Below, piece by piece: positions 13,665-23,538 of a stretch of 23,989 nt of DNA; positions within the stretch are counted from its first letter, which is position 1; each line of letters starts with the position of its first letter. Both the position numbers and the translations under genes were made by a program. The DNA comes from a virus. The notes beneath the pieces are model-generated. The model ran no database searches. It saw nothing but the letters and a program-made list of their open reading frames with translations, and was not told where the DNA came from. The stretch lies in the IMG/VR virus record IMGVR_UViG_3300031566_000365, positions 1-23,989 of that record; one strand, written 5' to 3'.

Positions 13665-15740
13665 TTATGCACCATAATTCTGATAAAGGCCGCGCCATTC
13701 CATGGCTTTTGCGCCGGCATCGATTCTGACTTTGTATTCCACACCGTCCACGGTCCAGCCTTCTTTGGTCTCCATGTACGGCGCTTCTTGACCGTTTAAG
13801 AAAAAAATGATTATGGTTTTCCCTTTACGGGCGGCCAGATACCACTTCGTGGCCACGTCGTCATCGATCCTGGGTTCATAGACCCGGGTGAAATAGGTCC
13901 CGCTATAGATATTTTTCCGGGTGGCCGCCAAAGAACTGTCCGTTGCAATGGTGTTGGTGTCCGCGTATTGCAGGGTCTGGAAAAACACCTCGGAAGCACC
14001 TTCCAGGGCTTTCGGCGCGATAAAGAATTCCGGACGGATATTGAGCCGGCGGAGCCCCTTGATATCCTTCTGGGTTCCCATGGCCAGCACGCCGGCGCCG
14101 ATGGTGTCAACTCCCGGCGCAGCGCCGGAACCGGAACCCACAAGATTGCCGTGGCCGGCGACAAACAATGCCAGCCCGTCGCCCATGGCTGCGTTGGCGG
14201 ACAGCACCGCGTAGACCACGTCCCCGATTTTCCGGTTCGCAGCTTCCCCGTGGCTCATGGGGATTCGAGTCAATGCCCCCAGGTCATCATTGATGATGGC
14301 CTGGCGGGTGATGGCAAAAATCTTTCCATAGGTGACGATGGAATACTGCTCCTGTTCCTCGGACCTGGACCCATACTGGTATTCGCCATGCTCCGGAATT
14401 TCCTCCAGGTCGTCGCTTTCCGATATTCTCGGTGAAGAGTGTATTTTGAAATCCGACACGGACCCGGTGGCGCACCAATCCTTCCAGGTTTCCTCGCTGG
14501 TCTCAAAGCCGACAAACAGGGCCTTGTTGGCCACGTTTCCCAGGATATAAGGCAGGTCGGTGGTTTGAAGCGCACGCCCCACCATCTTTCTGGGATCCCC
14601 ATCCTGTGATTTTCCGGCCAGGTACAATGCGTGGCGGGCCAGTTCTCTTAAAGAATACCCGGTGAGATCTTGGGCGCCCAGGGCCGGTTTTTCCGGCTTG
14701 AATTCCGGGCCCGACCGGATCAGCAGCGCATCGACGGCGGCCGCACGGAATTTGTCCCGCTCGTCCGCGATGGTTTCAATGGGCGTCCGGTACTGGGTGG
14801 TGTTTTCATCCTGCTTTTTGATCAGCCATGTCATTACCTTTTCACGAGCCTCATCCAGGGGCGTCCCTTCACGAACCAGATCATTGGTTTTTTCAGGGGG
14901 GTAATCAAATTTCGTGCACATGGCGTCGATGCCCCGGATCCGTTCGCGCTCTTCGCCGGTGGCCTCTTTCCGGATTTTGTCGATATCGACTTCGGGCTCT
15001 TTTTCAATTCTTTTTTGCTCCTCCTTCGGCAAATCCAGCCTCTCCAGGAACGCCCAGGCTTCGTCCTCCGTGGCCTCCTTGGAAAGCCCCCTTGCCTCCA
15101 GGAATTTTCTCGTTTTTTCATTCATGGTATTCTTCTCCTCTGTTGAAGTTGATCGTTTCTTTTTTTTGGTTTCGGTTCTGGCCTTGGCCTGTTCGTCCGC
15201 TCCGATGGGAACGATCGAAAGCTCCTTGACCCGCCACCGGGTGGTCACCAGGATCGGCCCCTCAAAGCTGCGCCCCTTGATGGTTCTGCGTTCATCTTTG
15301 GGCACCCATTCAGAGCTGATCTGACGATATCCCACGGAGAAATCGGTGAGGTGGCCCTCCCTGAGCTTGGTGAAAGGCTCTTCCGCCCCGGACACACTGG
15401 AAAAATGGACCCGTCCCGTAAGCTGGTCTTTTTCGGTTTTCATGTCCCGATAGGATCCCAATACGCTGGATGTTCCGGCCCATCGTTGGTGTGAGTCCAA
15501 CAGCGGCACCTGTCTCGATTTCGGTGTCTCCAATCCATCCATCATTAAAATTTCACTGATAATGCCCCGCTCCCAGTCAAATATTTCAATCGGGTCCTCG
15601 GTGGCGCCCACGACTTCGACGCTGCGGTCCTCTATATTTAGGGTGGCCGGTGCGCCGTCCTGCATCCGCAGGCTTATGGTGCGGTAGCTCAAATCGCCGG
15701 TGTTCGCCTGGTTGCGATGGATGATTTTCTTTTTTTTCAT
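13665..15740 (-). CDS. Prohead protease / major capsid protein fusion
   Basis: The 691-residue product joins two head functions. Residues 1 to about 185 are an HK97/U35-type prohead protease: PLLDSHQRWAGTSSVLGS carries the likely catalytic His84, GHLTDFSVGY carries Ser135, and VKELSIVPIGAD gives the conserved Glu173 region. A Lys/Thr/Ser-rich linker (KKKKRSTSTEEK, 192 to 203) follows. Residues about 206 to 330 are charged helices like a scaffold (delta) domain (EEQKRIEKEPEVDIDKIRKEA). The rest is the capsid protein: ALFVGFETSEETWKDW, NRKIGDVVYAVLSAN and a C-terminal KGKTIIIFFLNGQEAPYMETKEGWTVDGVEYKVR block resembling gpT-like capsid subunits. The protease should cut the delta domain during maturation. 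A strong internal ribosome binding site before Met206 suggests separate capsid synthesis. Confidence 0.9.
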   Translation of the reverse strand: MKKKKIIHRNQANTGDLSYRTISLRMQDGAPATLNIEDRSVEVVGATEDPIEIFDWERGIISEILMMDGLETPKSRQVPLLDSHQRWAGTSSVLGSYRDMKTEKDQLTGRVHFSSVSGAEEPFTKLREGHLTDFSVGYRQISSEWVPKDERRTIKGRSFEGPILVTTRWRVKELSIVPIGADEQAKARTETKKKKRSTSTEEKNTMNEKTRKFLEARGLSKEATEDEAWAFLERLDLPKEEQKRIEKEPEVDIDKIRKEATGEERERIRGIDAMCTKFDYPPEKTNDLVREGTPLDEAREKVMTWLIKKQDENTTQYRTPIETIADERDKFRAAAVDALLIRSGPEFKPEKPALGAQDLTGYSLRELARHALYLAGKSQDGDPRKMVGRALQTTDLPYILGNVANKALFVGFETSEETWKDWCATGSVSDFKIHSSPRISESDDLEEIPEHGEYQYGSRSEEQEQYSIVTYGKIFAITRQAIINDDLGALTRIPMSHGEAANRKIGDVVYAVLSANAAMGDGLALFVAGHGNLVGSGSGAAPGVDTIGAGVLAMGTQKDIKGLRRLNIRPEFFIAPKALEGASEVFFQTLQYADTNTIATDSSLAATRKNIYSGTYFTRVYEPRIDDDVATKWYLAARKGKTIIIFFLNGQEAPYMETKEGWTVDGVEYKVRIDAGAKAMEWRGLYQNYGA
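15123..15141 (-). promoter_or_regulatory. Internal ribosome binding site and start for the capsid part
   Basis: Inside the fusion gene the minus strand reads AGAGGAG, nine bases, then ATG (15125), in frame with the capsid part at Met206. It falls exactly in the linker between protease and delta domain. Initiation here would give a 486-residue scaffold-capsid protein (13665 to 15125) in excess over the full-length fusion. This fits the need for hundreds of capsid subunits and few proteases. Confidence 0.7.
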
Positions 15741-15773
15741 GGTAAAAATCTCCGATTTTCAGGTTAAAGGTAA

Positions 15774-15836
15774 AAGGTAGAAGGCTGAAGGTAAAAGGTG
15801 AAAGGTTTTAACCTTCAGCCTTCAGCCTTCTACCTT
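15774..15836. repeat. Long inverted repeat with 18-bp perfect arms between portal and protease genes
   Basis: The arms are AAGGTAGAAGGCTGAAGG (15774 to 15791) and its exact reverse complement (15819 to 15836), with a 27-base loop made of related AAGGTAAAAGG-type repeats. The gap from 15741 to 15858 has no gene. It has no T-run on the minus strand, so a terminator is unlikely. A strong mRNA hairpin that separates portal from capsid expression is possible. Confidence 0.8.
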
Positions 15837-15858
15837 CAGTCTTCAATCTTTCACTGTT

Positions 15859-17427
15859 TCAAACCACGACCTCATCCAATTTATCGATCAGATCGATAAT
15901 CATGGCCTTGGTGTCGTCGTCGTTGCCGTTCAGGGCGGCCGGATTGTTGGCCAGGGCGGTGGATACTTCCTGACCGGTGAGATCGTATTCCTCGGCCAGC
16001 TCTTTGGCCATTTTGATTTCCTTGTAAATATCCTCCAGATCCCGGCCCCGGCTTTTGGCGATCTCATATGGAGATCTCAACAGGGCGTTGACCTCGTCGA
16101 TCCGGGCCTTGGTCTCCCGCAACGGATCGATGCTCTCCATTCCCGGCGGCTGCCACTCGCACCGGAGGTAGGGGATCGGATTGGTAAAATAGCCCGGGAA
16201 TTGGAGCCGGCCTGCCAGGACCGCGCTGTCCATAAACGGAATAAAGGTTTTCTGGGCAAAATGCCGGATGTGCCGGACGGCGATGGGTCGGAGCTGATGG
16301 GCAAAATCATTGCGGGACGTGCGGCCCGTGGAATAGTTAAACCCCTCGTAATCGCCGGACAGCAGTTCATAGGGGGCGCCGGCGGTGATTGCCACCATGC
16401 GCAGGATTAATTTGATGAACGGCGGAAAGTTGGTGCCGGGGCGCGGGTTGCTGGCGATGGTGACATCTTCGCCGGGCCGGAGATACTCGATAATGGCGTT
16501 CTGCATCTCTTCGATTTTCTGGCCGGTATCGGGATCGGTAGTCATAGTCCCCAACTGGCGGCTGAACGGATCCGGGGTCTTCACAAATGACAGGTATTTG
16601 GCGGCCATCTTCGCGGCGTCGATTTCGGCGTCCATATATTCGGACAGATCCTTGGCCACCAATATGGCCGGCGTGAACGGGGATATCCCCCGGAGCTGGC
16701 CCGGCCGTAATGTTTGAAATCCGTGGATCACCCGGTCTACCGGAATCCGGACGGACTTTCCCCAGGAATCCGGGTCGATAAGATGAAGCGCCGCCACCTG
16801 GCCGGTGGCCTTCTGATATTCAATACCCTGGGAAAATTCGTTGCCCGGGCTCATTTTCTGACTGGCGGAACCGGCGAGCCAGTCGGCCTCGTACATCTGG
16901 AGGGCAAAGGGCAGGTATCGGCTCCGGTCTTTGGAAAGGGTTTTTACAATGAGAAATTCGCCGGTCTCCGCATCCTGGCGCTTGCCCAGGTGCATCATTT
17001 CATAATAATGGAGCTTGCCGGCAATGTCGGCCTCATCGGCCCAGAAATTGAATGCGTCCTCGGTCTGTTGGATCCGCTTTTTGTCCAGCTGGTCGTCCGC
17101 TCCGCGGATCCGGCTCTGGAAAATGATCCCGGCCCCCACCGTATAGTCGGCCAGAATATTGACCGCCCGGGCAAAATAGGGAAAATCGCGAACCAATTGC
17201 CGGACCCGGGCCCGGATGGCGCCTGATGAAGCTCCAATAATGTCGTTGACATTGGAATCCACCGGCGCCCAGGGGCCGGTGAGGCGTGTGGTTTTGGCGG
17301 CGGCATATTGGGCGCTGCGGACGGTTTCCAGTTTTTTCCGAAAAAACCGGCGCCGGATTTCGCGGCCCGGAGAAAAAACGCCGATCAGCCGGTCCAGAAA
17401 AGATTCTATTCCGTCGAATCGGCTCAT
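15859..17427 (-). CDS. Portal protein, lambda gpB type
   Basis: The 522-residue product matches the length and text of lambda-family portals (Phage_portal_2). N-terminal basic helices lead to TRLTGPWAPVDSNVNDIIGASSGAIRARVRQLVRDFPYFARAVNILADYTVGAGI, a very typical stretch. Later parts include FNFWADEADIAGKLHYYEMMHLGKRQDAETGEFLIV, VIHGFQTLRPGQLRGISPFTPAIL and APYELLSGDYEGFNYSTGRTSR, then the C-terminal ECEWQPPGMESIDPLRE-like segment (here RCEWQPPG). Twelve copies form the ring through which DNA enters and leaves the head. The ATG at 17427 overlaps the stop of the gpW-like gene (ATGA). The C-terminal acidic DLIDKLDEVVV may be the end of the crown. The call is firm. Confidence 0.95.
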   Translation of the reverse strand: MSRFDGIESFLDRLIGVFSPGREIRRRFFRKKLETVRSAQYAAAKTTRLTGPWAPVDSNVNDIIGASSGAIRARVRQLVRDFPYFARAVNILADYTVGAGIIFQSRIRGADDQLDKKRIQQTEDAFNFWADEADIAGKLHYYEMMHLGKRQDAETGEFLIVKTLSKDRSRYLPFALQMYEADWLAGSASQKMSPGNEFSQGIEYQKATGQVAALHLIDPDSWGKSVRIPVDRVIHGFQTLRPGQLRGISPFTPAILVAKDLSEYMDAEIDAAKMAAKYLSFVKTPDPFSRQLGTMTTDPDTGQKIEEMQNAIIEYLRPGEDVTIASNPRPGTNFPPFIKLILRMVAITAGAPYELLSGDYEGFNYSTGRTSRNDFAHQLRPIAVRHIRHFAQKTFIPFMDSAVLAGRLQFPGYFTNPIPYLRCEWQPPGMESIDPLRETKARIDEVNALLRSPYEIAKSRGRDLEDIYKEIKMAKELAEEYDLTGQEVSTALANNPAALNGNDDDTKAMIIDLIDKLDEVVV

Positions 17428-17651
17428 GATGTCCGCCCGCCCTGTTTGGCGTAGGTTCTCAGCGGCACCGTGCCGGCGACCGCGTCGGTCTGGGTCTGCA
17501 TGTCGTCGATCAGATCCTTGAGGCTCTTCATGTCCACGGGATGGTACTGGATGGTTTTGCCGGCAACGGTGGCGGAGGCCACCCGGGACCCGGCGGCCAG
17601 TTTGAGATAAGCGGCTTTGAGGGAATCGATTTCAGCTTGAGTGAATGCCAT
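17424..17651 (-). CDS. Head-tail joining protein, lambda gpW-like
   Basis: The start chosen is ATG 17651, which has AGGGG at eight bases and gives 75 residues, close to the 68 of lambda gpW. A further upstream ATG at 17702 lacks support. The protein reads MAFTQAEIDSLKAAYLKLAAGSRVASATVAGKTIQYHPVDMKSLKDLIDDM, very close to the gpW pattern: a helix, then GxRV, a short beta hairpin, then xxxDLxxyIxxL. It fills the portal channel before the tail attaches. It is the first gene after the terminator at 17813 to 17844, so the promoter for the structural genes may lie just upstream. It overlaps the portal start by four bases. Confidence 0.85.
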   Translation of the reverse strand: MAFTQAEIDSLKAAYLKLAAGSRVASATVAGKTIQYHPVDMKSLKDLIDDMQTQTDAVAGTVPLRTYAKQGGRTS

Positions 17652-17812
17652 AAAAAAAACCCCTATGCATAGTGGTTGCAAGTTGTGCAACAACCATATC
17701 ATGGGATTTTTTGTTTTTTTTTAAACTGCCGGATTCTGCGGAACTTTACGGAAGTTTTAGGCAAGGATGCGCAAATCTGCGCAATTTTACGCTTGACAGG
17801 GGATTTTTAGGC
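17652..17812 (-). promoter_or_regulatory. Gene-free control region upstream of the head operon
   Basis: This stretch between the terminator and the gpW-like gene holds several symmetric elements. GTTGCA-AGTTG-TGCAAC forms a hairpin near the gene start (17672 to 17688 by eye). TGCGCA-AATC-TGCGCA lies at about 17768 to 17783, and TTTTAGGCA occurs twice (17755 to 17763 and 17805 to 17813). A promoter for the structural operon is expected here because a terminator precedes it, but no convincing -35/-10 pair was found. It may need a phage activator or sit further away. Confidence 0.4.
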
Positions 17813-17844
17813 AAAAAAAAGAGCCGCTCCGGAGAGCGACTCTT
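17813..17844 (-). terminator. Rho-independent terminator after the accessory cassette
   Basis: On the minus strand AAGAGTCGCTC-TCCG-GAGCGGCTCTT forms a ten-pair stem with one mismatch, directly followed by eight T. It lies 27 bp behind the stop of the 161-residue gene and should end the transcript that carries the ParB-like gene, separating it from the head operon. Confidence 0.88.
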
Positions 17845-17870
17845 AAGGACTTGCCCAGGTCTTGAGGGGG

Positions 17871-18356
17871 TTAGATAATCTCGACAATATCAAAAGAAAA
17901 ATGCTCCCGATCTCTACCGTCAAATTGGTCAACATAGTCTACGATCCGGCGAACAAGACAACGATTTCCCGTAGACTTCTCATGCTCATCTGCAATGTGT
18001 CGAGCAAGTTCAACCCCGGATCTTTTCCCGTCACTTACTCCGTCTTTAATGTTCCTTACGATGTTTTCCATGTTGTTTCCCCCTTTGCCCATTATGGGCG
18101 GTTGGCCAATTATAGAAATTACTATCTCGTATTGAGCAAAGCCATTTCCGTGTTCATCCTCAACATTCGGAACCAAGCTGGCTATAAATTCATCTATGGA
18201 TACAAATTCACATTCATATCGCTCGTTTTCGTTGCTCGAGTTGACCATTTTGGCAACATAACCAGTCTTATAGATTTCGCTTCGTGTGTAGTCTGTGTTT
18301 CGCCGCACATTAATCTTGGCGGTTATTTCAGCCGCTTTTTCAAGAAATTTTTTCAT
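17871..18356 (-). CDS. Unknown protein, last gene of the accessory cassette (161 aa)
   Basis: An ideal AGGAGG lies 7 bases before the ATG at 18356. The product is soluble and charged, with no TM segment or signal. The N-terminus is a helix (KKFLEKAAEITAKINV). Beta-rich text follows (ARKMVNSS-like, YECEFVSIDEFIASLV, AQYEIVISIIGQPP), then a Gly/Asn-rich turn (MGKGGNNMENIVRNI), a helix with GVELARHIADEHEKSTG and a final strand pair (RCLVRRIVDYVDQF, HFSFDIVEII). I recognise no family. It is visibly more AT-rich than the head genes, and the terminator directly follows it. Its place as the last gene of a unit with the ParB-like protein suggests an accessory rather than structural role. Confidence 0.68.
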   Translation of the reverse strand: MKKFLEKAAEITAKINVRRNTDYTRSEIYKTGYVAKMVNSSNENERYECEFVSIDEFIASLVPNVEDEHGNGFAQYEIVISIIGQPPIMGKGGNNMENIVRNIKDGVSDGKRSGVELARHIADEHEKSTGNRCLVRRIVDYVDQFDGRDREHFSFDIVEII

Positions 18357-18364
18357 GTTGCATC

Positions 18365-18435
18365 CTCCTATGTTTGCCTATAATGTAATAATTGTTTTAA
18401 AGTTTTCAAGACTTTTTTTTAAAAGATCCTTTTAA
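18365..18435 (-). promoter_or_regulatory. Leader of the 161-residue gene with shared CAAACATAGGAG motif and AT hairpin
   Basis: The 93-bp gap behind the ParB-like gene is AT-rich. It has a TTAAAAG-GAT-CTTTTAA hairpin (18419 to 18435) and a weak promoter-like TTGAAA ... ATTATA pair with 19 bp spacing. The 12-mer CAAACATAGGAG, including the ribosome binding site, is identical to the one before the first cassette gene (20860 to 20871). Confidence 0.35.
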
Positions 18436-18449
18436 GGTTAATTTAATTT

Positions 18450-20159
18450 TCAATTCACTGTTTCGGAGGTCAGGATCTCATCAGGAACCTTGCCGGCCAA
18501 GTCCGCGCCGGATTCGATGAACACCCGGATCAGTTCGGCTTTTTTGCAGGATTTGAACGCACCCCGCTTTTTGAGCAGTTTTTCGAACAGAAAGGTCTGG
18601 GCCTTGGGATCCGCGAAAATTTCCAGCTTTTCCCCCAGGCCGAGCATTTCGCCGATGGTTTTCTTTTGGAGGTATTCCTCGGTGATCCGCCATTCCTTTT
18701 CCAGCTCGATGCCGAAGTGAGCCGCGATCTTTAACCGGGATTTGACATCGTACCGGTCCTGGAGAACCACCTGGATGGCGGCCTCCCGGAATGCGTCGTT
18801 GATCTGGACCATATCCATCTTGGTAATCAGGTCGAACAGGACATGATTTTTAATGGAGAAACAATAAGAGTTGTTATCGTCCTGCACCACGCTCTTTTTC
18901 CTGTACCCGCTATAAACGGCAAACCATAGGTCCAGGTCGTCGTTGGATTTGAGCAGGGAAAAAAGGGCCACCTGGGCCAGTTTCAACTCGTCATTCGAGG
19001 CCTGGATCCGGACCGGGATCTCGGTTTCATAAAATTTTTCCCGGAAATGGGTCCCGTGCCAGGGCACCCGGGGGCCGTCGCCGGGCATTTTTTTGTCGTT
19101 CTTTTCGGCTTTCTCTTGGACCCTGCTGGACCGGTAACACGCATCCTGGCCGAAACAGGCCCGCTCCTTGTAAACCGTTCCGTCCAGTTCGAGGATGGTG
19201 AGGTAGTGGGCGCACCCGCCGTTTTCCCCTTTTTTGCATTTGTCCGTGGGCTTGATCGGGTCGTATGACCAGGTGTTAAAGGAATTGTAATCTTGATTGT
19301 GGACATCGCCCTGGAACCGGAACCCGGTGGTTTTGAACTTTTTATAATAGGTGCTCTTTTTCCAATGTTTCACCAGGTGGTCATATTGCTTTCGCTTGTA
19401 ACAGATCCGGTTGAGGCACCGGTGTTTTTCCGTGTCCATGCCCCAGAGGGTTTTCTGGACCTCGGAATTTTGACTGCACGTCTCGCATTTTTTCCGGTCG
19501 AACCGGGCGCCGGCCAACTGCGGGGACAGGTTGTCGATTTTCCTTTTAAGGTCTTTGACCGACGCGATGCCATCCTCCCGCCAGGACACCTCTTCCAGGA
19601 CCCATTTGAAAAACTCGTTTCTCGTTTTTTTGTCTTTCAGGCGCATGAGCTGCTCCAGGTGGCCGTATTTCAGATCGTCCTTATCCCAGGCTTTCAGGAT
19701 TTTTGGAGCCAGGTCCAGGACCGCCACCCGCCGGCGGATGTACCGGGCATCGATGCCGGTGCGGTCGGCCAGATCCTGGAGGGACCCGGCGCCTTTTTTG
19801 TCCAGGTAAATTTTAAAGCCCCGGGCCTCTTCCAGTTCGGTGAGGTCCTCGCGCTGGAGGTTTTCGATGGTCATGAGGTCAAAGGCGGTGTCATCGTCCA
19901 TTTCCTGGACAATGGCCGGGATCCGGCAGTCGCTGTTTTCCGCCACGGCCTTGAGGGCCCGGAACCGGCGCTCGCCGAAAATGATTTCGTGCATGCCTTC
20001 GGGCGGGATCGGCCGGACCCGGATGGGTTGCAGGACCCCGTGGGCATCGATGGATTTCTTGAGCCCTTCAAATTTTATGCCGCTAAAATTGGTCCTGGAG
20101 TTCATGGGATTCGGCTGAATTCGGTCCAGCGATATTAATTGATAGGTTTCTTCTTGCAT
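18450..20159 (-). CDS. ParB-like nuclease/CTPase-domain protein with Cys clusters (569 aa)
   Basis: The N-terminal 200 residues form a ParB/Spo0J-type unit: LDRIQPNPMNSR (11 to 22), LKKSIDAHGVLQPIRVRP, the GERR box (62 to 65, in FGERRFRALKA) and ENLQREDL (99 to 106), the motifs around the CTP pocket. A helix-turn-helix follows at about 125 to 148 (SLQDLADRTGIDARYIRRRVAVL). Two Cys clusters that could bind zinc are C225-x2-C228...C248-x4-C253 and C308...C316...C335-x5-C341. The rest is helical with no family recognised. At 569 residues it is about twice the size of a chromosomal ParB, like plasmid or PRTRC-type ParB proteins. No ParA is visible in the window. It may bind phage DNA for partition, transcription control or packaging. 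An AGAGGAT site precedes the ATG. Confidence 0.8.
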   Translation of the reverse strand: MQEETYQLISLDRIQPNPMNSRTNFSGIKFEGLKKSIDAHGVLQPIRVRPIPPEGMHEIIFGERRFRALKAVAENSDCRIPAIVQEMDDDTAFDLMTIENLQREDLTELEEARGFKIYLDKKGAGSLQDLADRTGIDARYIRRRVAVLDLAPKILKAWDKDDLKYGHLEQLMRLKDKKTRNEFFKWVLEEVSWREDGIASVKDLKRKIDNLSPQLAGARFDRKKCETCSQNSEVQKTLWGMDTEKHRCLNRICYKRKQYDHLVKHWKKSTYYKKFKTTGFRFQGDVHNQDYNSFNTWSYDPIKPTDKCKKGENGGCAHYLTILELDGTVYKERACFGQDACYRSSRVQEKAEKNDKKMPGDGPRVPWHGTHFREKFYETEIPVRIQASNDELKLAQVALFSLLKSNDDLDLWFAVYSGYRKKSVVQDDNNSYCFSIKNHVLFDLITKMDMVQINDAFREAAIQVVLQDRYDVKSRLKIAAHFGIELEKEWRITEEYLQKKTIGEMLGLGEKLEIFADPKAQTFLFEKLLKKRGAFKSCKKAELIRVFIESGADLAGKVPDEILTSETVN

Positions 20160-20195
20160 GGTTTTATCCTCTGCTGCTGTTCGATGTTTTTCATT

Positions 20196-20384
20196 TTAAT
20201 CCTTTTTGGGTCTTCCGGGTTTTCGGCGTGGGATAGAGTTGAATTTTTCAACATCCTCTTTTTTAACCCACCAATCCCGACCCATTTTGGTTGCCGGTAG
20301 TTTTTTCCCGATTATGAGATACCGAACCCATGAAGTTGTGACCCCCAGGAGTTCGGCACATTCTTTTGTTGTGTATTGTTTCAT
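20196..20384 (-). CDS. Excisionase-like HTH protein with AT-hook-like tail (62 aa)
   Basis: The protein is a single MerR/excisionase-type winged helix: YTTKECAELLGVTTSWVRYLIIGKKLPATKMGRDWWVKKEDVEKF, the usual pattern of HTH_17 domains. The last ten residues, RRKPGRPKKD, contain the GRP core of an AT-hook, a minor-groove binding motif rare in phage excisionases. GGGAGA lies upstream of the ATG. The gene sits 36 bp before the ParB-like gene and could control the cassette or assist the ParB-like protein at its binding site. A role in excision is possible, but no integrase is present here. Confidence 0.78.
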   Translation of the reverse strand: MKQYTTKECAELLGVTTSWVRYLIIGKKLPATKMGRDWWVKKEDVEKFNSIPRRKPGRPKKD

Positions 20385-20389
20385 GCCAA

Positions 20390-20587
20390 TTAGATCTCCC
20401 TTAAATCATTTAAACACGTTTGGATCTCCGCGGTTATCATTTCCGGCAGATCGATTTCGTCAAGGATTTCAACCGCTGAATCCCGATAATAATCATCAAG
20501 CACCGTCAAAATTCTTTGCGTGATGTGCTTTGCCTTTGTGTGTAGGACTAATCTTTTTACCGCTGATGTGTCGTTGTAGTCTATCAT
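20390..20587 (-). CDS. Unknown small helical protein (65 aa)
   Basis: The start ATG at 20587 has GGGAGG at seven bases. The product is predicted helical and mildly acidic: DYNDTSAVKRLVLHTKAKHITQRILTVLDDYYRDSAVEILDEIDLPEMITAEIQTCLNDLREI. There is no TM segment, signal or known motif. It lies five bases before the HTH gene and is co-directional with it, so the two are probably co-transcribed. A small regulator or partner protein is possible, but nothing in the sequence proves it. Confidence 0.6.
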   Translation of the reverse strand: MIDYNDTSAVKRLVLHTKAKHITQRILTVLDDYYRDSAVEILDEIDLPEMITAEIQTCLNDLREI

Positions 20588-20611
20588 GGTTAGACCTCCC
20601 TTTTTCCCCTT

Positions 20612-20631
20612 GCCCCTCCGAAGAGGGGCAG
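20612..20631 (-). repeat. UUCG tetraloop hairpin between cassette genes
   Basis: On the minus strand TGCCCCTC-TTCG-GAGGGGCA forms an eight-pair stem closed by C(UUCG)G, one of the most stable RNA tetraloops. It has no T-run behind it, so it is more likely an mRNA-stabilising or processing element than a terminator. It lies in the 57-bp gap between the first two cassette genes. Confidence 0.7.
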
Positions 20632-20644
20632 TTGATTGTTTTTG

Positions 20645-20851
20645 CTACCAGCCTTCTTCCTCTTCGATTCCAAGAATGTCATTCAAGCCAACAATCGCCC
20701 TGGCGATGTTGCCAACATGCCCCCAGTTTATTTCTTCGGGTGCAAATGCATTTTGGTGGTTTTCAAGATACGTCTCAAACATTTTGATTCGCCTTTTTGC
20801 TTTTTCCTGAATCTCTATATAGGCGTTAAGTGCTTTGGTGTTTTTTTCCAT
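20645..20851 (-). CDS. Unknown small helical protein, first gene of the accessory cassette (68 aa)
   Basis: The start ATG at 20851 is chosen because AGGAG lies eight bases before it; a longer frame to 20884 would begin before the ribosome binding site. The product is helical: MEKNTKALNAYIEIQEKAKRRIKMFETYLENHQNAF, then PEEINWGHVGNIARAIVGLNDILGI and an acidic EEEEGW end. No family was recognised. It is the first gene behind the sigma-54-like promoter at 20900 to 20915, with a predicted leader of about 38 bases. Its role in the cassette is unknown. Confidence 0.65.
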   Translation of the reverse strand: MEKNTKALNAYIEIQEKAKRRIKMFETYLENHQNAFAPEEINWGHVGNIARAIVGLNDILGIEEEEGW

Positions 20852-20899
20852 TTTATTTTCTCCTATGTTTGGGTTTTCTCTCATCTTGCCCTATTATAA

Positions 20900-20915
20900 A
20901 GCAATTATTGTGCCA
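20900..20915 (-). promoter_or_regulatory. Sigma-54 (-24/-12) promoter candidate, with overlapping TATAAT
   Basis: On the minus strand TGGCAC-AATAA-TTGCT matches the RpoN consensus TGGCAC-N5-TTGCW at every defined base, with the required ten bases between GG (-24) and GC (-12). Transcription would begin near 20890, just before the first cassette gene. A TATAAT (20893 to 20898) overlaps it, but its -35 (TCACGC) is poor, so a sigma-70 promoter is the weaker reading. No activator site could be assigned with certainty. Confidence 0.55.
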
Positions 20916-21175
20916 GCGTGACGATTAAATAGCGAGAAAGCATAACTCCCTGTAATTGCACAGTAAAACCGATCAAGCAAAAACTAAAGGCGTGAAATAG
21001 TTGCTCAAGAATGACAATTTTCGGCACCAAAAACACCATTTTGTCACGTACGAAAAACAATAAGAAAATCACATGTTTAGAGTGCAGGAAAATACAACAT
21101 GACAAACATTATACCGACCATTAAAATATTTAATACTTATTAAATAAATTTAAGGATTAAAAAACCTCAATACTA

Positions 21176-21202
21176 TTTACAAGGCCGGAGCATCCTTGTA
21201 AA
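21176..21202. repeat. Inverted repeat TTTACAAGG-N9-CCTTGTAAA
   Basis: The arms are 9 bp and perfect, the spacer is CCGGAGCAT. On the minus strand no T-run directly follows. The symmetry and arm length suit a dimeric DNA-binding protein. It lies about 270 bp upstream of the sigma-54-like promoter and partly overlaps the first direct repeat. Confidence 0.75.
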
Positions 21203-21279
21203 CCCTTGAATAGCGGGGATTTGCGGGAAGTATTTGGAGAAGTAAAAAATCATCGTAAACCCTTTGATAGCGGGGGTTT
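21198..21279. repeat. Two 25-bp direct repeats (GTAAACCCTT...ATAGCGGGG...TTT)
   Basis: Copies at 21198 to 21222 and 21255 to 21279 agree at 22 of 25 positions and start 57 bp apart. Each begins GTAAACCCTT and ends GCGGGG(A/G)TTT, so AAACCC and GGGTTT form an imperfect inverted repeat inside each copy. They lie within 120 bp of the Nu1-like gene end and may be its binding sites. Confidence 0.75.
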
Positions 21280-21313
21280 TCAGAAAGTTGATGATGGTTG
21301 TAAAAATTGTTTT

Positions 21314-21568
21314 TTATCGGATTTTTTCTTTTTTAATTTTTTTTTTGGTTGAAGATTTTTCCTCCTTTTTTCGGATTTTAGGTCCGGTTATCATTTTGCG
21401 GCGCCAGTCATCGATAGCTGTTTTGTCGCTTTCCCATATACCGCCATCCATCTTGTTTGCCGGAAAATCCAAATTCCGAATCCAGTCCAAAACGGTGGCC
21501 TCGCTTCGGTTGACATATGCGCCGATTTCCTTCATGCCCTGCAATGCGGTTGATGATCTTTTGACCAT
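21314..21568 (-). CDS. Nu1-like winged-helix protein, putative small terminase subunit or regulator
   Basis: The 84-residue product has a MerR/Nu1-type winged helix: GMKEIGAYVNRSEATVLDWIRNLDFPANKMDGGIWESDKTAIDDWRRKM, with the recognition helix near residues 21 to 33. The tail is strongly basic (KIRKKEEKSSTKKKIKKEKIR). Position next to the large terminase suggests the small subunit, which marks the packaging start on DNA. It is shorter than lambda Nu1 (181 aa) and lacks its C-terminal part that binds gpA, and it follows rather than precedes the large subunit. So a phage regulator of the same fold is a real alternative. It has AAAAGGAGA upstream and starts 14 bp behind the terminase stop. Confidence 0.7.
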   Translation of the reverse strand: MVKRSSTALQGMKEIGAYVNRSEATVLDWIRNLDFPANKMDGGIWESDKTAIDDWRRKMITGPKIRKKEEKSSTKKKIKKEKIR

Positions 21569-21582
21569 TTTTCAATCTCCTT

Positions 21583-23538
21583 TTACCATCGGGTTTCTTT
21601 TGGTTTTTTCTTTTTGGGTTTGCCGGGTTCTTGTTTTTTTTCTTTGGGCCAGAACATCATCCCCAGAATCTCGTGGGCCACCAGGCAGAGGGATGCGCAG
21701 TCCCACAAATGATTATCCTCGCCGTCCGGGCAGTCCCAGACGCCTTGCTCGTTGACGAACTCGGCGGTCATGTGCCGGGCCCAGTCGGATGAAAATTCAT
21801 TGTTTTCGTGCCAGGCCCCGGGATCGGACGGGGCGATCTCCAGGAGGCCGGAGAGTTCGTCCTTGAAATACTGGGTGTTGACGTTGATCCCCTTGAGCCC
21901 GCCGGGGATCTGTTTTTTGGTCCCGGGAAAATATTCCAGATTGGTCCAGGTATATTTGGTGGCCATGCGCTGCCGGCCGAACGATGGAAAAATCCGGCCC
22001 CGGTGTTTGAGACAGAACGTATAGACCTCGGAGGTTCGGTGCCCTAGGGCGTCCTGGACCACCATGGCCATGGCGTACGGGTTGCCCTCCGCGTCCATGT
22101 AGGTGTCCTGCCAGAGGACCCGTTCCAGGGCTCCGAAGGTGGTGACGTACCCTTCCCGGATCCCCCAGCTCTCCTTGACCAGCTCCGGGCCGCCGTATCC
22201 GAACGCCCGGATTCGGTACCAGAACCCATAGTCCTGGGTATCCACCCCGGCCACCAGCCCGGCCACCACATTGTCCCCGGGCACCCGCCCCAGGGGCCGG
22301 TCGTCCCGGAGCATCAGAATCCGGTCTTCGCTCCGTTCTTTTTGGGTAATCTTCCAGGGTTCTGCTGCATATCCGTTCTGGAAATCCTTCAGGGCGGTCT
22401 TTTGGGGGGATGTGTCATGGATGCCTTTGAGAAACGCCGCCGCGCACTCGCTCAGGGTCACGAACGGCGATATCCAGGCCGGCATATGAAAGCCGATGGC
22501 CTTGGGGTTGAATTCTTTCAAATAGGCGAACAGTTCGACATCCCCGGTCCTGGATCGGTATTCCCCGTGCCGGACCGCCAGATCCCGGAGCGGGTTCAGT
22601 CCGTCCATGTCGTCCCATGTTGCATCGCATTCCAGGCATACATAAAAGGCGGCCTGATCCCGGTGGATCGTTTTGGGATCCGCAGCCGAACCCCCGGGCC
22701 ATTTGATTTGTTTGAAATCCATTTTATAGGCCGAACCGCAGTCCGGACACCGGACCCAATAATCGAAAACGACCTCTGCATCTTCGTTGAGCCCCTTGGA
22801 GATCCCCACGCCTTCGATGGTGGGGGACGACAGTCGCCAGAGTTTCCGCTTGTTCGGAAAATTGCGCATCCGTTTGCGGACCAGCTCCACCGGACCGGTT
22901 TCTTTTTTCCCCACCGTGACCGGGTTTTTGTTCTCCTCGTCGACAATCCCATAGGGCAGGGGCCGCTGGGACAGCCGGGCCGCGGACGTGGCCCAGGCAA
23001 AATAAATCTTGAGGTGCTGGAGCTTGATCCGCATGGTGGCCAGATCGTCCATATCCCCGGTAAGGTAGGACCGGAGCCGGGGCGAATCTTGGAGCATGGG
23101 CCGGATCCGGTCCTTGGAAAAGGTGCCGGCCTCTTTTTCGTCGGGAAACACAATCAAAACATTTCCAGGTGCCCGGTCTATGATATATCCCAGGCAGTTG
23201 GCCGCGCCCTGGGATTTTCCTCCCTGGGGCACCGCGCACACGATGATCTCCTCCACCGACGGGTAAAACGACGCGTCCATGATCCCGGTGAGATACTGGG
23301 CCGTGATGTTTTTCCAGGGTCCGGGGCGGGGCGAATCCTCGGGGAGAACGATGTGCCGCTCGGCCCAGACCGATGGCCGGATTTTGGATTTCCGGATGAG
23401 GATTTTCTTGTCTCCGGGCGAAAACGACACGGTGATGTGGTGCCGCGCCTGCAGCTCCTCCATGGACCAGGCCGGCAGCCATGCCGGATCGATGGAGATG
23501 GGCATCTCCAGGTGATGGGTAATGGGTAATGGGTTCAT
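21583..23538 (-). CDS. terL: Terminase large subunit, lambda gpA type
   Basis: The protein has up to 651 residues, matching lambda gpA (641). Residues 57 to 85 include SVWAERHIVLPEDSPRPGPWKNITAQYLTG, a family hallmark. The ATPase Walker A-like motif is VPQGGKSQ (103 to 110), and the Walker B is YGIVDEEN (196 to 203, Asp200 and Glu201). Cys264, Cys267, Cys301 and Cys304 form a likely zinc knuckle (CPDCGSAYK, CLECDATW). The nuclease part begins at VVAGLVAGVDTQDYGFWYRI. It drives DNA packaging and cuts the genome ends. The first 11 residues (MNPLPITHHLE) come from an ATGGGTAATGGGT-type repeat and have no good ribosome binding site; ATG at 23505 may be the true start. It is Arg/Gly/Pro-rich at codon level, so the reverse strand shows long spurious frames. 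Confidence 0.95.
   Translation of the reverse strand: MNPLPITHHLEMPISIDPAWLPAWSMEELQARHHITVSFSPGDKKILIRKSKIRPSVWAERHIVLPEDSPRPGPWKNITAQYLTGIMDASFYPSVEEIIVCAVPQGGKSQGAANCLGYIIDRAPGNVLIVFPDEKEAGTFSKDRIRPMLQDSPRLRSYLTGDMDDLATMRIKLQHLKIYFAWATSAARLSQRPLPYGIVDEENKNPVTVGKKETGPVELVRKRMRNFPNKRKLWRLSSPTIEGVGISKGLNEDAEVVFDYWVRCPDCGSAYKMDFKQIKWPGGSAADPKTIHRDQAAFYVCLECDATWDDMDGLNPLRDLAVRHGEYRSRTGDVELFAYLKEFNPKAIGFHMPAWISPFVTLSECAAAFLKGIHDTSPQKTALKDFQNGYAAEPWKITQKERSEDRILMLRDDRPLGRVPGDNVVAGLVAGVDTQDYGFWYRIRAFGYGGPELVKESWGIREGYVTTFGALERVLWQDTYMDAEGNPYAMAMVVQDALGHRTSEVYTFCLKHRGRIFPSFGRQRMATKYTWTNLEYFPGTKKQIPGGLKGINVNTQYFKDELSGLLEIAPSDPGAWHENNEFSSDWARHMTAEFVNEQGVWDCPDGEDNHLWDCASLCLVAHEILGMMFWPKEKKQEPGKPKKKKPKETRW

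Follow-up and report, generated by a model that had tools for sequence, protein, structure and literature searches.

Proteins with the ParB fold that are encoded outside a parAB operon and lack the ParA-binding motif (L/F/I)G(K/R)G(L/F/I) have been defined as orphan ParBs; the nucleotide that a ParB binds is not predictable from its sequence, and anti-defence or host-takeover roles have been suggested for phage ParB fusions (Kaljevic et al. 2025, PMC12704722). We analysed a 23,989-bp virus fragment from IMG/VR (IMGVR_UViG_3300031566_000365, hereafter the window) of an uncultured temperate phage, in which a protein of this kind is encoded in a cassette of five genes between the terminase gene (TerL) and the genes for the gpW head-tail adaptor and the portal. 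Like the described orphan ParBs, it combines the ParB-CTPase fold with a helix-turn-helix (HTH) domain, outside a parAB operon, on a mobile element and without the ParA-binding motif; unlike them, it is long, with a Cys-rich C-terminal half of ~380 amino acids (aa), and its gene shifts position within one phage group. It shares the ParB_N and HTH domains and the CTPase motifs with the ParABS systems of P1, F and actinophages, whereas neither a ParA nor the ParA-binding motif was found in the phage of the window, which has an integrase. The ParB of PRTRC systems (TIGR03734) is its best NCBIfam match (172.3 bits, in two stretches) and resembles it in length and in the lack of a ParA, but the score stays under the 278.6-bit cut-off and ThiF (PF00899) is absent from six phage records, so that a PRTRC cassette was rejected; we class the protein as an orphan of a long, Cys-rich, PRTRC-like family. 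On present evidence we consider it probable, at roughly two chances in three, that the cassette is accessory cargo of the moron type, carried in a variable slot where the replication/terminase module ends (its 3' side), ahead of a terminator and a conserved boundary element.

Gene order and gain of the cassette

A preliminary description of the window had listed five genes (68 aa, 65 aa, excisionase-like HTH, ParB-like of 569 aa, and 161 aa) between the terminase and gpW/portal, and all five open reading frames (ORFs) are found where it placed them. The cassette does lie between TerL and gpW; it does not follow TerL directly, since an HTH gene (HTH84) and 0.46 kb of non-coding DNA come first, and the start of gpW has to be corrected to 17651. 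Two further IMG/VR records (G001 and G002), which match the DNA of the window at 100% identity, extend the map. The relative L006 (record G003) has a TerL 77-81%, a gpW 97% and a portal 95% identical to those of the window, but the cassette is absent and its HTH gene lies just 69 bp from gpW; DNA homology between the two breaks off on the gpW side at 17710, which is 8 nt before the gpW leader ORF, and on the other side at 21647, at the 3' end of TerL. In L033, the remaining member of the best-supported TerL clade, the interval is compact, at ~0.7 kb, and holds no ParB. Because the two closest relatives (L006/L032 and L033) thus lack the cassette at the corresponding place, we regard it as accessory and probably as a recent gain in the lineage of the window. 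Comparison of the sequences establishes the slot, its variability and the absence of the cassette from the closest relatives.

These features agree with those of morons: extra genes between conserved genes, a site that is empty in close relatives, small AT-rich genes, and a terminator of their own (17844-17819, predicted from sequence) with a promoter candidate. Deviant base composition is found in the four small genes, which are AT-rich (41-49% GC at third codon positions, GC3) and unlike the phage backbone in codon use; ParB (GC3 72.6%) resembles the backbone (67-75%). The cassette differs from morons in this backbone-like ParB gene, in an expression that is predicted only, and in its slot, a module joint that receives many cargoes without kinship to one another.

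Cargo of related phages and the module joint

A scan of IMG/VR with a TerL profile returned 80 loci (L numbers). Their common gene order is a helicase of the D5/P4 type, primase, often a methyltransferase, p291, TerL, HTH84, gpW, portal, and protease/major capsid protein (MCP). The distance from TerL to the portal gene ranges from 543 to 6592 bp (53 loci), and many related phages hold no cargo in the slot or cargo of other kinds. Among the latter are methyltransferases (N6/N4 and C5), antirepressors (AntA and Bro-N), PAPS-reductase-like proteins, a deoxynucleoside monophosphate kinase, RadC, a SocA-like protein, and an AbiU2-like HEPN protein. Related phages therefore do not always carry the five genes, a constant presence being the outcome that the preliminary description had set against its own proposal; its view of a self-contained accessory unit is borne out by the two closest relatives, by the unrelated cargo elsewhere, and by the terminator before gpW. 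In L062 a ParB of a different subfamily occupies the same slot behind RadC. A consensus sigma-70 promoter (TTGACA-17-TAAAAT, L062 3707-3735) stands upstream of this separate operon of a small ORF, RadC, and ParB.

Across loci L030-L108 the TerL bit scores follow those of the helicase, primase, and p291 (Spearman 0.78, 0.81 and 0.76), while their correlation with the portal scores is just 0.22 (p 0.14) and that between portal and MCP is 0.69; with all scores measured to the proteins of the window and with related loci, the p-values can serve only as a guide. Intrinsic terminators occur 180-560 bp before the portal gene in 13 of 47 loci; shuffled sequences give 0.7, the opposite strand 1, and random places 1.9. 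Since TerL scores track the replication genes and not the portal, the slot is by this measure the joint between the replication/terminase module and the structural (gpW-portal) module, and the gpA-type terminase belongs here with the replication genes, with which it co-varies. Together with the terminators before the portal, this pattern puts the slot at the end of the replication/terminase module rather than in the middle of a packaging-head module.

Conserved element ahead of gpW

T4-type hairpins hide the ribosome sites of late genes. The window and many relatives share an arrangement just before gpW, referred to here as the boundary element: CTGTCAA, degenerate repeats of ~10-11 bp, and AAAA(T/C)CCCATGATATRGT...ACCATATCATGGGG-T run-ATG. 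Of 47 loci, 19 have it, whereas the background rate predicts ~1.2 matches by chance. Carriers are the window, L031, L032, L034-L036, L039-L042, L044, L048, L054, L058, L065, L089, L101, L104, L107, and L121-L165. When IMG/VR was scanned for AAAACCCCATGATATRGT, 48 stretches were found, of which 43 have a portal gene 228-993 bp downstream; the remaining five are two palindromic matches for which the wrong strand was read, or loci that leave little room downstream. The element is single in G001 and G002, and G003 has one exact match and one with a single mismatch. Rfam and tRNA scans gave no match to it, nor was it found in cultured phages by BLAST.

In most, not all, of the cases tried the hairpins fold stably (down to -33 kcal/mol, z to -6.7), and 3 of the 14 pairs of the consensus are changed on both sides. 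As in the T4-type hairpins, the gpW ribosome site lies, in most cases, within the 3' arm of the conserved hairpin; unlike them, the element has a possible promoter start inside and may be a packaging site instead. Two roles come into question, that of a terminator/translation lock containing a late start and that of a packaging site. As to the latter, contigs of 40 kb run through the element, and an apparent end in L144 is only the edge of the stretch. L006 and many other relatives that lack the cassette keep the element, whose presence is therefore independent of the cassette.

Domains and relatives of the ParB protein

ParB_N (E 1e-20) and HTH_ParB (3e-9) together take up residues 1-190 of the protein, and the CTPase motifs GERRFRA and ENLQREDL are intact; the remainder, the Cys-rich half, is conserved in full-length homologues. 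An AlphaFold model (predicted local distance difference test, pLDDT, 78; predicted template modelling score, pTM, 0.45) aligns with structures of ParB, Noc, and KorB only in its first ~210 residues, its full-length structural matches being other predicted phage ParBs. The ParA-binding motif, searched as a regular expression, is absent from all 15 ParB homologues, two of which lack the N terminus.

Homologues in other phages are 30-49% identical. The nearest full-length relative outside phages (41%) is on plasmid Do28_1 of D. ovata (Desulfosarcina), where it adjoins an annotated antirestriction gene and lies near a single-stranded DNA-binding protein gene (SSB), and a homologue on Geoalkalibacter pGSUB1 (30%) adjoins a ThiF cassette. 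Within the phage group the gene is found before the helicase (L007, L060), between primase and TerL (L018, L019), or after TerL (the window), and only 4 of the 21 loci that span helicase to portal carry it. The ParB and TerL trees do not separate relocation from fresh acquisition, the ParB tree being weakly resolved. Just upstream of the homologues in two bacterial contigs (Synergistaceae, Syntrophorhabdus) lies a DnaN-like sliding-clamp gene (L028 1438-2607; L029 4767-5918), which is confirmed by Pfam in L029 and similar by sequence in L028. Two more ParB-fold proteins are encoded in the same phage: a fusion of ParB-N with an N6/N4 methyltransferase (L011 8571-9899) and a 338-aa ParB-like protein (L012 4493-5509).

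Cassette genes and signals

All genes of interest in the window are on the minus strand (Table 1). The 68-aa ORF has a longer form of 79 aa beginning at 20884, the ATG with an AGGAG site being that at 20851. The excisionase-family HTH gene does not adjoin an integrase, the integrase (L012 8311-9402) being beyond the other end of the window. The 161-aa protein has no relatives in IMG/VR, plasmids or phages, and its single-sequence structure model is uninformative (pLDDT 37); kinship with the genes downstream of plasmid ParBs was dismissed as unconvincing, with an identity of just 17-20%. Short dispersed repeats (~60-100 bp, 79-94% identical, in both orientations) occur between phage genes, at 15737-15861 in the window and at several places in L006 and L013.

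Table 1. Features of the window at and around the cassette
Feature	Position	Strand	Evidence or remark
TerL, gpA type, upstream neighbour	21583..23538	-	phrog_15, E 2e-112
HTH84, 84-aa HTH gene, next after TerL in many relatives	21314..21568	-	weak HTH matches
AT-rich non-coding spacer, 462 bp, 34% GC	20852..21313	.	holds two 40-nt direct repeats
Candidate sigma-54 promoter TGGCACaataaTTGC	20901..20915	-	exact -24/-12 core match, TGGCAC-N5-TTGC
68-aa protein, member of phrog_14596 (unknown function)	20645..20851	-	E 3e-8
65-aa protein, no family	20390..20587	-	family searches
62-aa HTH_17/excisionase-family DNA-binding protein	20196..20384	-	TIGR01764, 46.4 bits (cut-off 28.8); HTH_17
Orphan ParB-like protein, 569 aa	18450..20159	-	ParB_N 7-102; HTH 104-190; Cys-rich C-terminal half
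161-aa orphan protein, no relative found	17871..18356	-	searches of IMG/VR, plasmids, phages
Intrinsic terminator closing the cassette (predicted)	17819..17844	-	11-bp stem, T8
Boundary element	17652..17800	-	CTGTCAAgc, degenerate repeats, AAAAATCCCATGATATGGT dyad/hairpin, T8 run, gpW ATG
gpW head-tail adaptor	17424..17651	-	phrog_75, E 2e-10; start placed by homology
Portal protein, downstream neighbour	15859..17427	-	phrog_21, E 5e-84

The preliminary description had given the cassette its own promoter candidate and a strong terminator. The terminator holds up as the best one on the minus strand in our scan, separating the cassette from gpW. The promoter is an exact sigma-54 core, with one match in the whole window against 0.09 expected by chance, a pattern picked post hoc, after looking at the sequence; of the 29 loci searched, those that have it are all copies of this one phage. 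A TATAAT stands 3' of it (20898-20893), with no good -35. Past the HTH84 gene there are two direct repeats of 40 nt (21192-21231 and 21249-21288, 80% identical), possibly binding sites of an HTH protein, an operator or parS-like site, or a packaging site; L007 and L006 have other repeats at the matching place.

Functional interpretation

As moron-type cargo, the five genes would sit in the slot with a transcription of their own, from the promoter candidate (20915-20893) to the terminator (17819). Judged by its motifs, ParB would be a CTP-binding clamp that closes on DNA at a parS-like site and then slides, most likely on the DNA of the phage; a ParB without ParA would not segregate DNA. Because its relatives neighbour a P4-type helicase, a primase, a DnaN-like clamp, and plasmid SSB and antirestriction genes, the clamp may sit on incoming or replicating phage DNA, where it would help replication, silence or shield; the operon would likely be regulated by the HTH protein. 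The benefit to the phage would be help in replication or protection/anti-defence, and our data do not separate the two.

Several points weigh against this interpretation. The three cassette records are identical in DNA and therefore count as one observation; the promoter, a consensus match picked once the sequence had been inspected, is not conserved in relatives. As to a parS site, none was identified, with the direct repeats at 21192-21288 as the sole candidates, and the C-terminal half of ParB matches no solved structure. The records searched for ParA are fragments, so a distant ParA is possible. Finally, the codon use of ParB matches the phage backbone, from which ParB may be an old resident early gene that moved and not foreign cargo. 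In that case it would be a replication-module gene working with the phage helicase and primase that now ends the same transcription unit, which would agree with the homologues beside helicase/primase (L007, L060, L018, L019) or the DnaN-like clamp (L028/L029), and with the co-variation of TerL with replication genes. We find this doubtful in view of the promoter and terminator candidates and the AT-rich partner genes; moreover, a gene present in so few of the helicase-to-portal loci is not a core replication gene.

An operon for anti-defence or host takeover, in which the ParB clamp would coat phage DNA or silence host genes early after injection, draws on the antirestriction gene and SSB near the closest plasmid homologue, on the ParB that follows RadC in L062, on the methyltransferases and PAPS-reductase-like genes in neighbouring slots, and on the roles suggested for phage ParB fusions. 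We think it unlikely, since the search of PADLOC families gave only generic HTH and weak matches among the cassette proteins; the defence or anti-defence unit first proposed keeps some likelihood through the plasmid neighbourhood. The leading-region anti-defence of PMC11541004 was considered as a parallel and set aside, its two mentions of ParB concerning plasmid R1 hok/sok, another kind of protein. A late-gene control module, as the preliminary description also suggested, would make ParB a KorB-like repressor with the HTH protein as its partner; KorB is among the structural matches, the cassette sits just before the structural operon, and a dyad and repeats precede gpW. This is improbable, because the boundary element is independent of the cassette; no direct evidence was found for such control, and the terminator and boundary hairpin ahead of which the slot ends have the look of insulation. 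A further suggestion was partition or plasmid-like maintenance; the prophage would then be extrachromosomal and use a ParA of the host or an unseen one. It is compatible with the ParB_N and HTH_ParB domains and with the nearest full-length non-phage relative being on a plasmid, and it is nevertheless very improbable, because no ParA was found and an integrase is present. The ParA families PF13614 and PF01656 are absent from G000-G002 and from eight other records with ParB relatives, in which controls were found, in agreement with the lack of a ParA partner noted at first; the ParA-binding motif is missing; and G001 encodes an integrase and a CI-like repressor, most relatives having integrases as well.

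Implications

For the biology of these phages, the joint of the replication/terminase and structural modules would be the place at which the group stores its exchangeable cargo, and the window would offer a plain example of a phage ParB for which a role in ordinary partition is unlikely. The element just before the portal operon, single-copy in G001 and G002, would be an undescribed conserved DNA or RNA element. As a tentative broader picture, in which we place limited trust, the genomes of a large uncultured phage group may consist of two halves that can be exchanged and that meet at a single conserved cis-element (CTGTCAA, repeats, and the CCCATGATATRGT dyad before gpW); this late-gene switch or packaging (cos) site would fix the adjacent cargo slot, and among the cargoes would be the orphan ParB clamp, which would act on phage DNA with no need of a ParA.

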